Below, one piece after another: positions 1,174 to 52,058 of a stretch of 52,218 nt of DNA (position 1 is the first letter of the stretch; each line of letters begins with the position of its first letter). A program made the position numbers and the translations under genes. Source of the DNA: a virus; the IMG/VR virus record IMGVR_UViG_3300025846_000001, positions 1-52,218 of that record; one strand, given 5' to 3'. The notes under the pieces were generated by a model. That model saw only the letters and a program-made list of their open reading frames with translations. It was not told the origin of the DNA and made no database searches.

Positions 1174-1884
1174 TTAATTATATTCTTGCGCTTCAAGTTT
1201 CGTAATAAAGGCATGAATGCCATGCGAACACTCAATAAGAGGGGAAGGATCAAAGGAATCAGGAGTGACTACCTCGCCGGTCTTATAAATAAAAACAGAG
1301 TTATAGGTGCCTAATCCTTTTTTTACTTTCTTTTTACCATCATAAATTGCAATTACTTGAGCAAATTCAAATCTACATTTACGGCTTCCGATAGCATTTA
1401 CTCTTTTTGCTTTTGTAGGAATAAGAAGTTTTGCTATTAAATTACCTTGCAGTTTTTTCCATACTATTAAATCACCTTCTGGAGTTATTGAATTTAAGGA
1501 TGCTATTCTTTCTAAATTCGCTCTGGATAAATCCGCTCTGGATAAATCCGCTCTGTATAAATCCGCTCCGTATAAATTCGCTCTGGATAAATTCGCTCCG
1601 GATAAATTCGCTCCGGATAAATCCGCTCCGGATAAATTCGCTCTGGATAAATCCGCTCTGTATAAATCCGCTCCGTATAAATCCGCTCCGGATAAATCCG
1701 CTCTGGATAAATCCGCTCCGGATAAATCCGCTCCGTATAAATTCGCTCTGGATAAATCCGCTCCGGATAAATCCGCTCCGTATTTCAAAGCTTCTAAAAC
1801 AGTTTCTTTTATTGAGTTATCTTCCTTTTCAAACTCAAAAAGAAGTTTGCCGAAAATTGATTTAATTTGAATAGTTGTTTTCAT
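1174..1884 (-). CDS. pentapeptide-repeat protein with DUF5758-like C-terminus
   Basis: 236 residues. Residues about 36-127 are some 18 tandem pentapeptide units of the type A(D/N)L(S/Y)(G/R), which fold as a right-handed quadrilateral beta helix. The C-terminal ~100 residues (from [17 protein letters not shown] to [17 protein letters not shown]) match the domain that often follows phage pentapeptide repeats (DUF5758-like). Some pentapeptide proteins mimic DNA and inhibit gyrase, but the phage forms with this tail have no settled function. The repeats are almost perfect at DNA level (15-bp units), indicating recent expansion by slippage. Confidence 0.85.
1514..1783. repeat. 15-bp tandem repeat array inside the pentapeptide gene
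   Basis: About 18 near-identical 15-bp units (plus-strand unit gataaatccgctccg and variants) encode the pentapeptide helix. Units differ mainly at three positions, switching Ser/Tyr, Gly/Arg and Asp/Asn. The array should change length readily by slippage or recombination. Confidence 0.9.
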
Positions 1885-2218: not shown

Positions 2219-2362
2219 TATAATATTTTTAATATTAATCATATTTTAGTAACTATTTTCACCTCGAACGCTAATTTATATTGATTCTAACTTATATTAC
2301 TCTTTAAGATATAGCACCTCTATTCGGTAATTCTTATGAATATCCGCTTTGTTATTTAAACA

Positions 2363-2543
2363 CTCAGGAAAGAAGACAGCCCCATCGTTAAGGGTTGGAT
2401 TGAACTTTTAAAGTATTACCGACCAAATTGTGAGTTTGCGCACGTTGTTTGGATTTGTTTATCGTTACCAAGCCTTCTCATCCTGCTCTGTTTTTGTTTT
2501 ACATTCGATATAATCAATACCGGCTAAACTGTGTCAAAATAGC
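2363..2543 (-). ncRNA. candidate structured RNA element, copy A
   Basis: This non-coding stretch shares six collinear sequence blocks with 51720-51894: 2363-2368, 2386-2405, 2419-2430, 2450-2463, 2480-2494 and 2526-2539. Spacing between blocks differs by 0-1 bp except the last interval (46 against 40). Read on the minus strand it begins with a hairpin (GGCTA/TAGCC at 2540-2544 and 2522-2526, loop containing GACACAG) and ends with another (2380-2383 with 2392-2394) whose loop is conserved in copy B. A longer-range helix (2392-2398 with 2468-2474) has a different but also complementary sequence in copy B. Sense strand is inferred from the all-minus gene order. No known RNA family is recognised. 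Confidence 0.55.
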
Positions 2544-3074
2544 CTATTTTAAAAACATATCATAAGGATCAAATCTGTAAATATTAACTTTCCTTTTACT
2601 TGTTTGAATCCATGTATTTTTGTGACTTATTCCGAATCTTTGATTTATTTTTACCCATCCCATTGTTTGCCAAAATAAGTTACTTGGTAAATCATCTGCA
2701 CAACCACAGGAAAATGAATGAGTATAGATAGTTTTTGCATATTCAATTACGCTATCCAAAAGTAATTTACCCCTTAACATTAATCTTGCATCTATCTGTA
2801 AGCATATTTGCGCTATTTTGCCATATTTCCAAACCGCATTATATTGACCAAATGAAGCTAAAACAAATCCGACCAAATCACCATTACAATCACAAACCCA
2901 AATCTTATCATTACAAGTATCTGACCACCTATCCCCTTTTTTAATTCCTGTTATAGCAGATTCATAAGCCATTTTGGGAATAAAACCAATTGATTGTGAT
3001 TCCTTTTTTGAAAGACTAACAATATAAGGTAAATCTTTAATTTCAGCAAAACGGACAATTCCGATTTCAATCAT
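2544..3074 (-). CDS. GNAT-like acetyltransferase
   Basis: 176 residues. The order of elements fits the GNAT fold: an N-terminal strand and helix (VRFAEIKDLPYIVSLS), a central strand pair (WVCDCNGDLVGFVLASF), then a segment resembling motif A (ICLQIDARLMLRGKLLLDSV) where acetyl-CoA would bind, and a late FWQTMGW segment typical of the final strand-helix. The glycine-rich pyrophosphate loop is degenerate (RLMLRGKL), so activity is uncertain. The start overlaps the upstream stop (ATGA). Substrate is unknown. Confidence 0.55.
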   Translation of the reverse strand: MIEIGIVRFAEIKDLPYIVSLSKKESQSIGFIPKMAYESAITGIKKGDRWSDTCNDKIWVCDCNGDLVGFVLASFGQYNAVWKYGKIAQICLQIDARLMLRGKLLLDSVIEYAKTIYTHSFSCGCADDLPSNLFWQTMGWVKINQRFGISHKNTWIQTSKRKVNIYRFDPYDMFLK

Positions 3075-3292
3075 TTATTTTGACTTAAATATTCACTAAG
3101 TACATCAAAAAGAAGTAAATGAGGGCTTTTATCTGCAAATTTAACAAATTTCAAAAGTTCCCTCCGATTATCCTGAATAACACATTCTTCCACTATCTTA
3201 TGTGCCATAACTTCAGGGATTGAACCACTATTTATTATTTCACAAATTTGCTTTTCTACCTCTATTGCACTCTCCTGTTTTTTAATTTTCAT
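3071..3292 (-). CDS. hypothetical 73-residue protein
   Basis: Mostly helical and charged (MKIKKQESAIEVEKQICEII...). It has ATGA overlaps with both neighbours, so it belongs to one translationally coupled string, 3611 to 2544. No motif is recognised. Confidence 0.65.
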   Translation of the reverse strand: MKIKKQESAIEVEKQICEIINSGSIPEVMAHKIVEECVIQDNRRELLKFVKFADKSPHLLLFDVLSEYLSQNK

Positions 3293-50436: not shown

Positions 50437-50897
50437 AACCTTACAGTTACTTTAGTCTTACCTGTTTTTGGAGGACGTGTTAAGAAGTTCCCATATACAG
50501 GGCAAACAGTTCCCTCCTCAGGAATTGATTTTAAATAGGTTTCACGAGCCTTAATCTTCTCTTTAAGGGTTTCTACTTCTTTAGTAAGATCAAGCCAAAT
50601 AGCATCGCCGGAATCGTTGTACAAATATTTCGTACCTACTTCCTGAACGGTGAATTTTATTCCCAGATGATCAAAGGTCTTTTCCTTGTACTTTTCAGCT
50701 TCAGTAAGAAAATGCTCTTCAATATCTTTATCGGTTAAAATATCTGCAAACACCTTTTCAATAAATTTCAACCTTTTGAGTATCTCTAAAGGGTCGCGGT
50801 CGTCTGCCAGAATCTCTGATTTAAGCATCCTGGTAAATTGTGCCACCTCCAGTTTTTCTGAAGGCAGCACGCTGATTGTTGATAATGCAGTTTCCAT
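50433..50897 (-). CDS. hypothetical 154-residue protein next to SSB
   Basis: Helical N-terminus (FTRMLKSEILADDRDPLEILKRLKFIEKVFADIL), then FDHLGIKFTVQEVGTKYLYND and a coiled coil (TKEVETLKEKIKARETYLKS), and a basic, Pro-rich end (TRPPKTGKTKVTV). Coupled to the SSB-like gene by TAATG. Likely a recombination or replication partner by position. Family not named. Confidence 0.65.
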   Translation of the reverse strand: METALSTISVLPSEKLEVAQFTRMLKSEILADDRDPLEILKRLKFIEKVFADILTDKDIEEHFLTEAEKYKEKTFDHLGIKFTVQEVGTKYLYNDSGDAIWLDLTKEVETLKEKIKARETYLKSIPEEGTVCPVYGNFLTRPPKTGKTKVTVRL

Positions 50898-51634
50898 TAG
50901 AAGGGTAAATCTGAAAGTTCATCACTCTGATCTGCTTTTGACTTATTAACCAAGTCTTGTTTTGCGGAACCTTTTTGCCAATCCGGATTAGCAACAAACT
51001 CTTCGGTTGCTTCAGCTTTAGCAATTTCCTTTTCTGGTTGTTGGTTTTTATATTCATCCAAATAACCTTGAAGTATCTCATCCAATAAAATTGCTTCCTG
51101 TCTTATCTCATCAGTCATTTTAAAAGCCTTGAAAACAGGAACATTATAAACAGTATTCCCATTTGTTTCTTCTGTTAGATCAACAATTCCGACAACTGAA
51201 TTGTTTGTATTGAATTTCTTTTCAAGCCAGCCGGAAAATGAAGATCCTTTGAATTTAAAGTTTACCAGCTCATTTGTTCCATCTTTTTGAACAAGCAAAG
51301 CATAAACAGACTTTGTGTATTTGCCTCCAATAGCCTTTATAGAGTCTTTAACATCATTATAAAGTCCGATAATACTTTCCCCGCCTTTAAAGGTCTTGAC
51401 CCTTAAAATCTCTTTAACGGTTGAATGCACTTCATTTGAATACACACCGCAGTCATTTTTCTTATTGTAGCCGGAAATTGTTGAAAGCTCATCCAGTACT
51501 ACAAAATAAATAGGCATAGGAATTTCAATCTGAACTTCTTTTTCTTTATCATAATAGAAAAATTGTCCTTTGTCCCCTTTAAAGTCAATAAACTTCTTGC
51601 AGGGATTCTCTAATTTTGGTTTTGAAATACTCAT
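50897..51634 (-). CDS. single-stranded DNA-binding protein candidate
   Basis: 245 residues. It starts MSISKPKLENPCKKFIDFKG and contains beta-rich core segments (YYDKEKEVQIEIPMPIYFVVLDELSTI, SNEVHSTVKEILRVKTF, SVYALLVQKDG). The C-terminus ends acidic and aromatic (DQSDELSDLPF), as in SSB tails that bind replication partners. Gene order with a NinG-like recombination gene supports ssDNA handling. The OB fold itself is not proven from sequence. It is the first gene of the early operon behind leader RNA 5 and element copy B. Confidence 0.7.
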   Translation of the reverse strand: MSISKPKLENPCKKFIDFKGDKGQFFYYDKEKEVQIEIPMPIYFVVLDELSTISGYNKKNDCGVYSNEVHSTVKEILRVKTFKGGESIIGLYNDVKDSIKAIGGKYTKSVYALLVQKDGTNELVNFKFKGSSFSGWLEKKFNTNNSVVGIVDLTEETNGNTVYNVPVFKAFKMTDEIRQEAILLDEILQGYLDEYKNQQPEKEIAKAEATEEFVANPDWQKGSAKQDLVNKSKADQSDELSDLPF

Positions 51635-51719
51635 TTTTTAAGGTTTAATTATTTAACATTTAACATATCACTTTTATTCGGACATTATTATTAATATCCA
51701 TTTAACTTTATTTAAAGTT

Positions 51720-51894
51720 CTCAGGTCAAAAGATGCCCGCATTCGGTAACGGCTGAGTTTGAATCTTTATTCATGTCCGACCAAGTTGAGAAGTTGACTC
51801 AGAGCCTGGATTTTGTTATCTAACTCAGATCTTTATATCCTGCTTTGTTTTGGATTACCCTATTTCGGGATGGGAAAAACTGTATCAAAAACCC
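51720..51894 (-). ncRNA. candidate structured RNA element, copy B
   Basis: Blocks shared with copy A: 51720-51725, 51744-51764, 51777-51788 (11 of 12 identical), 51807-51820, 51837-51851 (14 of 15) and 51877-51890 (13 of 14), in the same order and nearly equal spacing. The 3' end has a hairpin (51735-51739 with 51750-51753) whose loop keeps TCGKTAA as in copy A. A long-range helix 51753-51759 with 51822-51828 is a perfect 7 bp and differs in sequence from that of copy A. It lies in the leader of the SSB operon, 85 bp before the start codon. Confidence 0.6.
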
Positions 51895-52007
51895 TATGTC
51901 TGGCGTTACATGGGCTGTAAACGACTGCATCACTGCGGGCGGTTTTTCGCCAGAGCATAGAGCAATTTTTGATAAGTCTTTAATTTGTATCATTTACACC
52001 CATGTAA
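51894..52007 (-). ncRNA. pseudoknot-like leader RNA 5
   Basis: Minus strand: a TTACATGGG (52007-51999), b CTATGCTCTGGCG (51960-51948), a' CCCATGTAA (51914-51906), b' CGCCAGACATAG (51905-51894), then GGGTTTTTG. Arm a/a' can be extended to 15 pairs with one bulge, and b/b' is 12 pairs with one bulged base. This is the strongest of the five. It stands between the promoter and RNA element copy B. Confidence 0.65.
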
Positions 52008-52015
52008 ATCCAATA

Positions 52016-52023
52016 CAAATATA
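52016..52023 (-). promoter_or_regulatory. promoter -7 box of the SSB operon
   Basis: Minus strand TATATTTG. A TTTG at 52042-52039 is only 15 bp upstream, shorter than the usual 19-21. Leader RNA 5 begins about 9 bp downstream, as at the other leaders. Confidence 0.5.
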
Positions 52024-52058
52024 AACATTAATTCAATTCAAAGAACTTTTTTTGATAT

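Follow-up and report, generated by a model that had tools for sequence, protein, structure and literature searches.

The sequence analysed here, referred to as the window, comprises the 52,218 nt of IMG/VR record IMGVR_UViG_3300025846_000001 (positions 1 to 52,218) and represents a circular phage contig, the circle being closed by a 127-nt terminal overlap. Nearly all of its genes are carried on the minus strand, and two stretches located between minus-strand genes, E1 and E2, were found to be homologous. A preliminary description of this DNA had proposed two related copies of one element sharing blocks in the same order, and this was borne out, as E1 and E2 align in the same order with few gaps and with 71% identity over 204 columns. 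Their local alignment score was 77, compared with 19.6 +/- 2.6 (maximum 31) for dinucleotide shuffles and with at most 27 elsewhere in the window. A one-domain model built later, R2, matched precisely the intervals 2363-2486 and 51720-51843, and a search of the window with it returned nothing beyond these two; its scores were obtained on the training sequences and are not evidence on their own.

E2 is a long form of about 340 nt extending from a hairpin, H1, to a conserved 3' tail (51669-52011, minus strand), and the same span was found in the relatives L010, L011, L013, L075, L076, L083, and L093. A Bacteroidetes-type promoter, TTTG...TATATTTG (52016-52042), ends 4 nt before H1. In the direction of the minus strand, this promoter is followed by H1 (51991-52011), which forms the 5' end of the RNA, by helix P1 (51892-51962; CUCUAUG at 51956-51962 with CAUAGGG at 51892-51898, CYCUAUG/CAUAGGG in the long forms in general), which encloses P2 (51948-51953 with 51900-51905), by a GNRA hairpin GCAGUGAUGC (51927-51936), for which relatives have GCCGAAAGGC, GCCGAGAGGC, or GCCGUGAGGC, and by hairpin H2 (51906-51921), which is complementary to H1. 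The core common to both forms then begins with hairpin P3, GGG-UUUUUGAUACAGUUUUU-CCC (51872-51894), whose GGG is shared with P1, and continues with hairpin P4, seen directly in E2 in a short version, CCC-GAAATA-GGG (51858-51869), and with an A tract, CCAAAACAAAG (51843-51853), which is near invariant in all relatives and which pairs with the 3' part of the P3 loop as the 3' strand of an H-type pseudoknot. The remainder of the core consists of P5 enclosing P10, the double hairpin P6, and P11 (51720-51843, the R2 match), and of a 3'-terminal strand, AUGUCCGA, with the conserved tail AUAAAAGUG (51669-51685), which pairs back with a strand S, UCGGACAU (51773-51780), located between P6 and P10. A 57-codon ORF (51820-51993, minus strand) overlaps the 5' half of E2. 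The gene directly downstream (50897-51634, minus strand; phrog_6706, of unknown function) has its AUG about 43 nt past the end of the terminal helix, with no intervening promoter motif.

E1 is a short form of about 230 nt running from P3 to the 3' tail (2315-2546, minus strand). It begins at the stop codon of the upstream gene (2544-3074) and lacks both the promoter and the 5' domain of E2, which adds about 115 nt and reaches to about 52011. Its P3, GGCUA-UUUUGACACAGUU-UAGCC (2522-2544), directly follows that stop codon and leads to P4 (2501-2520) and the A tract (2486-2500), which together occupy 2486-2520. The P5-P10-P6-P11 domain (2363-2486) is again the R2 match, and the 3'-terminal strand AUUACCGA with its tail (2315-2331) can form 8 nt of exact pairing with strand S, UCGGUAAU, at 2415-2422. 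The extent of about 180 nt that had originally been assigned to the element had its 3' end set too early, since the RNA runs about 50 nt further, to about 2315 and 51669. Similarly, the statement that both copies lie near the start of an operon holds for E2, with which a transcription unit begins, but not for E1, which is found where a unit ends. Features that had been overlooked are the pseudoknot, the long-range helix formed by the 3' terminus, the additional 5' domain of E2, the ORF that overlaps it, and the division into a long and a short form.

Relatives were sought with short DNA patterns over IMG/VR and, with one pattern, over bacterial genome contigs, and the matches were verified with profile models, with covariance models, and by eye. 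Because the patterns spanned short anchors only, conservation of the rest of the architecture serves as an independent check. Fourteen further distinct relatives were obtained; their source contigs (6-79 kb) are viral or metagenomic and, besides the window, number at least twelve. Eleven sequences are long forms (E2, L010 with the near-identical L012, L011, L013, L075, L076, L083, L093, L043, which equals L044, L045, and L051/L052), and the short forms are E1, L003 (equal to L006), L005, and L071, with L003/L006 and L005 being close relatives of E1. In L030, which was the yield of the bacterial scan and comes from the contig of a bacterial MAG that is possibly misbinned, only the core was recognised and the 5' end is not clear. 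The 12 copies whose whole 3' domain aligns are termed class A; in L043, L045, L052, and L030, which fall outside it, recognition is limited to the core and, in those where it was seen, the 5' domain. Genomes contain one to three copies, two in the window and three, at different gene groups, in phage G008. As far as can be judged from the stretches available, some of the relative phages share several genes with the window and others few or none. Many pattern matches proved to be due to chance and were dropped on checking (L002, L004, L014-L029, L031-L042, and L046-L050), and most matches of one later scan were likewise rejected, with only L076, L083, L084, and L093 being both new and real. Covariance models were also run against 395 Bacteroidota and 395 Bacteroidia genomes, in which, under strict filters and without a positive control, they detected no credible copy; the single weak host match, L105, was rejected, as the remainder of the element is absent from it. 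No relative was found by blastn in the collections of phage and plasmid records. Rfam 15 had no match in the window or in L010, L011, and L013, in agreement with the initial view of an undescribed RNA, and permissive Rfam searches of the element regions and the relatives gave nothing on the element itself, the best below-threshold matches lying outside it.

Several other features were noted on these contigs. Neither a tRNA nor a tmRNA was found in the window. As regards a self-splicing intron, which would have a known core and flanking exons that belong together, the window gave no Rfam intron match, and homologues of the upstream ORFs, which were sought in phage records to judge a truncation, were not found. 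The 49-kb phage contig of L043, which also bears the new RNA, carries a permuted tmRNA (L043:2125-2503, plus strand; RF04321, 63 bits). The window encodes a pentapeptide-repeat protein at 1174-1884 (minus strand), with about 18 tandem 15-bp units, and homologues of it were found in two contigs, L007 and L101, the latter being the contig of L052, where the homologue lies downstream of the RNA. In L007, a related contig, the place syntenic to E2 (2980-3240, plus strand) is occupied by a different hairpin-rich segment, of which only the last 22 nt (AATAATGTCCGAATAAAAGTGA) match E2. Since the match is limited to these nucleotides, the 3' tail of E2 may have a separate role of its own.

The fold was supported by comparison of the relatives in alignments made with MAFFT without structure information. 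In an alignment of 12 sequences (A8), 96.3% of the cells in P5a, P10, P6, and the P6 inner hairpin were paired, compared with 79.0% in shuffles, both sides were changed in 12 of the 18 pairs, and the covariation score was 0.534, against 0.204 for shuffles and 0.010-0.159 for slid partners. In an alignment of eight sequences (A9), P1, P2, and the stem of the GNRA hairpin were 97.7% paired, with covariation of 0.295 versus 0.151, and RNAalifold contributed the additional helix P11. P4 is represented in the relatives by 15 distinct strand pairs with 69 of 76 cells standard. Strands located by hand in all sequences gave consistent results, which should be taken with caution because they were chosen by eye. 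In tests free of such hand selection, the two long-range contacts proved particular to each sequence: exact complementarity of H1 to the H2 of the same RNA is 7-11 nt in all 11 long forms (mean 9.2 nt, versus 5.0 in cross comparisons), and that of strand S to the 3'-terminal strand is 6-9 nt in 12 of 12 (mean 7.8 versus 4.9). An internal UUACCGA as a second, switch-like partner of S is not claimed, with 4.58 for own and 4.20 for cross pairings. In the 12 class-A copies, P3 and the far end of the terminal helix delimit a stretch of 210-226 nt, and about 40 core bases are near invariant across very divergent relatives. The preliminary description had noted a hairpin with a constant loop and an altered stem, which is P3 (GGCUA/UAGCC in E1, GGG/CCC in E2, and GGGAA/UUCCC in L005; the stem is GGG/CCC except for the 5 bp in E1, L003, and L005), and a long-range helix altered on both strands, which was recovered as CCAAA/UUUGG versus CCAGG/CUUGG. 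Its inference of a structured RNA would have failed had transcripts been absent and had the homologues in phage metagenomes shown no covariation and conservation only as DNA. The covariation test in such homologues gave compensatory changes in helices that lie outside the search patterns, and, transcripts aside, this objection does not apply. The covariation counts do not represent independent events, given the small number of relatives and the kinship among some of them; folding energies of the single sequences did not stand out (minus strand, z -0.22 and -1.20) and were not used as evidence. A diversity-generating TR/VR repeat was also considered and rejected, as the differences between the copies spread beyond one base. 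Judged from sequence comparison alone, we have very little doubt that E1 and E2 represent a genuine new family of structured phage RNA.

Stem 2 of the pseudoknot covaries, being GUUUU/AAAAC in most relatives, CUUUU/AAAG in L075 and L083, and UCCU/AGGA in L071, but independent changes are few (permutation P 0.052), and L030 has one mismatch. H-type pseudoknots with a triple helix are known from telomerase RNA and from the SAM-II and preQ1-II riboswitches, and triple helices also from ENE elements. The new RNA resembles them in having a GGG/CCC stem 1, a U-rich loop 1, and a GUUUU/AAAAC stem 2, so that loop 1 could form U.A-U triples and a triple helix in the core is possible. The U tract 5' of the pseudoknot strand becomes UUUC where the A tract becomes AAAG (L075 and L083), which is the change that a triple helix of U.A-U and C+.G-C would require, although the triple helix itself remains an inference. 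A sequence relation of the new RNA to those pseudoknots was not found by Rfam, and no link to a reverse transcriptase or ligand was found, without a systematic search. P1 followed by U5 was considered as an intrinsic terminator and rejected, as L075 and L083 keep only UUUC, which tracks its AAAG partner and not a terminator. A terminator-like hairpin, CCGCTG...CAGCGG followed by seven T, occurs about 21 nt before P3 in L052, between the 5' domain and the core; it is the only true one among the copies, and its loop holds the strand complementary to H1.

Several observations indicate on which strand the element is read. The proposed helices contain 38 G.U pairs versus 8 A.C (30 versus 8 without P1), the GNRA loops are legible on the minus strand of the window, and each copy with listed neighbours has the orientation of those genes. 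TAnnTTTG has been named as a Bacteroidetes promoter motif (PMC10309648), and a full TTG-TAnnTTTG promoter directly precedes H1 in 8 of the 11 long forms; in the short form L071 one directly precedes P3. About 0.13 such motifs per kb per strand would be expected by chance. No copy has a full antisense (-33/-7) promoter match, other promoter types being outside the scope of the search. The G.U excess, the GNRA loops, the orientation of the genes, and the position of the promoter all agree with the minus-strand reading first suggested and point to an RNA from that strand, although its transcription is inferred and no transcript data are at hand. An element acting as DNA, for example a protein-binding repeat or a site of packaging, recombination, or replication, would account for the presence of more than one copy per genome and for the copy in L010 that adjoins terminase genes on their upstream side. 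However, it would leave unexplained the G.U excess, the GNRA loops, the pseudoknots, the promoter at the 5' edge, and the many different neighbouring genes whose orientation the element follows, and we regard it as extremely unlikely.

The long forms raise the question of coding. An ATG ORF of 54-96 codons adjoins H1 in all 11 of them, each with P 0.001-0.042 against shuffles. The earlier statement that both copies are non-coding therefore has to be qualified for E2, although its ORF shows no clear amino-acid constraint. Relative to the core, three or more frames are used by these ORFs, so that relatives read shared conserved bases differently. Upstream of P3, pN/pS was 0.79 in the ORF frame and 0.92 and 1.13 in the other frames, compared with 0.29 in a control gene. 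Two frames of the core are partly open (VFDTVFPxxDYIExNPKQ and GFLTQFFPxLII), and the variation there is wobble-like. From the differences in frame and the weak constraint we conclude that the conservation is due to RNA structure and not to a protein, and coding as its main cause was rejected; this rejection leaves unexplained why the ORF is open in all 11 long forms, which may be a mark of translation through the element. In hok and AapA1 mRNAs, a short ORF is contained in a strongly structured mRNA with competing helices. Functional metastable structures have been described for one such mRNA (PMC6733600). The consistent presence of an ORF next to H1 would fit a structured mRNA of this type, in which the fold regulates the synthesis of a small, fast-evolving peptide, but the absence of clear amino-acid constraint and of a full antisense promoter, the reading of shared bases in different frames, and the lack of the ORF in the short forms make this explanation improbable.

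The genes that follow the RNA are unrelated to one another and include genes for terminase, an epimerase, an HNH protein, and unknown functions. Six of the 12 class-A copies (E2, L011, L013, L083, L093, and L003) have the next ORF 16-53 nt past the 3' helix without an intervening promoter motif, in four (E1, L005, L075, and L076) 112-233 nt separate the RNA from the next ORF with 40 codons or more, and two (L010 and L071) have a promoter motif between the RNA and the next gene. In L010 this motif, TTTG/TAACTTTG, lies between the end of the RNA (588) and the genes for the small and large terminase subunits (704). In L003 (9756-10025, minus strand), as in L006, the short form is followed after 53 nt by the start of a small gene resembling those of HNH endonucleases. 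No terminator consisting of a hairpin and a U run was detected after the RNA in any copy, in stretches reaching to about 290 nt after P3. The promoter before H1, the absence of a terminator, the nearness of the next ORF, the unrelated genes, and the three copies in G008 support a role in cis, as the leader of an operon or at the junction between operons. This is the reading that we tentatively prefer, while its effect on the downstream genes is inferred; a leader role cannot be universal, because of the promoters after the RNA in L010 and L071 and the more distant ORFs of E1, L005, L075, and L076.

Alternatively, the element could be a free-standing, abundant structural or trans-acting RNA similar to GOLLD or ROOL, transcribed from its own promoter and functioning as RNA only or in an RNA-protein complex, in which case the H1-H2 complementarity could be an intermolecular kissing contact. 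The promoter in most long forms, the varied neighbours, the promoter motifs that separate the RNA from the next gene in L010 and L071, and conservation up to the terminal helix are in line with this possibility. A homo-oligomeric RNA cage joined by kissing loops between molecules characterises ROOL and GOLLD. Both contain kissing loops, and in GOLLD the 3' region is conserved while a 5' domain is optional (PMC12286853), as in the RNA described here, which resembles both as a large ornate RNA of phages or prophages with a pseudoknot, a possible kissing contact, and no known function. However, it is much shorter, at about half their size or less, the window lacks a tRNA, the next gene often starts at most 53 nt away (in half of class A with no promoter motif before it), no terminator follows any copy, and no match in sequence or structure to GOLLD or ROOL was obtained at gathering or permissive thresholds, on the assumption that the Rfam release searched includes both. 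We rank the free-standing RNA as a possible and close second to the cis role, and the mechanism is still undecided. A riboswitch-like sensor, with a pseudoknot core that switches the genes behind it on binding of a metabolite or protein, would make sense of the near-invariant core bases in very divergent relatives and of the GGG common to P1 and P3, which makes an extended P1 and P3 mutually exclusive. It is a very unlikely explanation, as P1, and hence its competition with P3, is missing from the short forms and the downstream genes have no common function; with unrelated genes and no terminator, a cis-acting RNA of several operons fits better than a gene-specific riboswitch.

Among the closest precedents for such an RNA is put of the lambdoid coliphage HK022, which binds the beta' zinc-binding domain of RNA polymerase and suppresses termination. 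Two related copies of put are found per genome downstream of promoters, and a short RNA triplex has been reported in stem I (PMC9378689). The new RNA is likewise a structured phage RNA with related copies per genome, and put-like placement, with a phage promoter upstream and more than one copy per genome, is met by the long forms only. It differs from put, which is about 70 nt with two stem-loops, in its length of 230-340 nt, its pseudoknot core, its multi-helix domain, and its occurrence in phages with Bacteroidetes-type promoters, and both its three- to fivefold larger size and the location of short forms after stop codons argue against the reading in cis. Since no Rfam family matches and the RNA does not satisfy the structural definitions tested for put, GOLLD, ROOL, and type I toxin mRNAs, we consider it to be novel.

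If the RNA acts in cis, it would fold while emerging from the polymerase and alter elongation, processing, or translation of its own transcript, and one phage would reuse it ahead of several unrelated gene groups, as HK022 does with put RNA. Comparison indicates that the terminal helix locks the 3' end back into the RNA and that the extreme 5' end of the long form pairs with an internal hairpin. The short ORF of the long form has its start codon right beside H1, and its translation is a plausible sensor by which the fold would be remodelled. It is conceivable, although on balance unlikely, that this amounts to a new class of regulatory RNA and to control of phage operons by RNA only, in which a triple-helix pseudoknot core, a contact between the 5' end and an internal loop, and the 3' lock constitute a conformational device. 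One phage would employ this device repeatedly where unrelated gene groups adjoin, and its sensor would be an ORF that is translated while its amino-acid sequence is free to vary. To our knowledge, large structured phage RNAs are few and mostly without known function. Comparative support for the new family is strong, its start is defined, its 3' end is conserved, and its compact invariant core lends itself to structure determination; the pseudoknot triples, the H1-H2 contact, and the 3' lock are concrete predictions. With these properties, and with natural long and short forms present in one to three copies per genome, it offers a tractable test case for operon control in phages that have Bacteroidetes-type promoters and no studied regulators.
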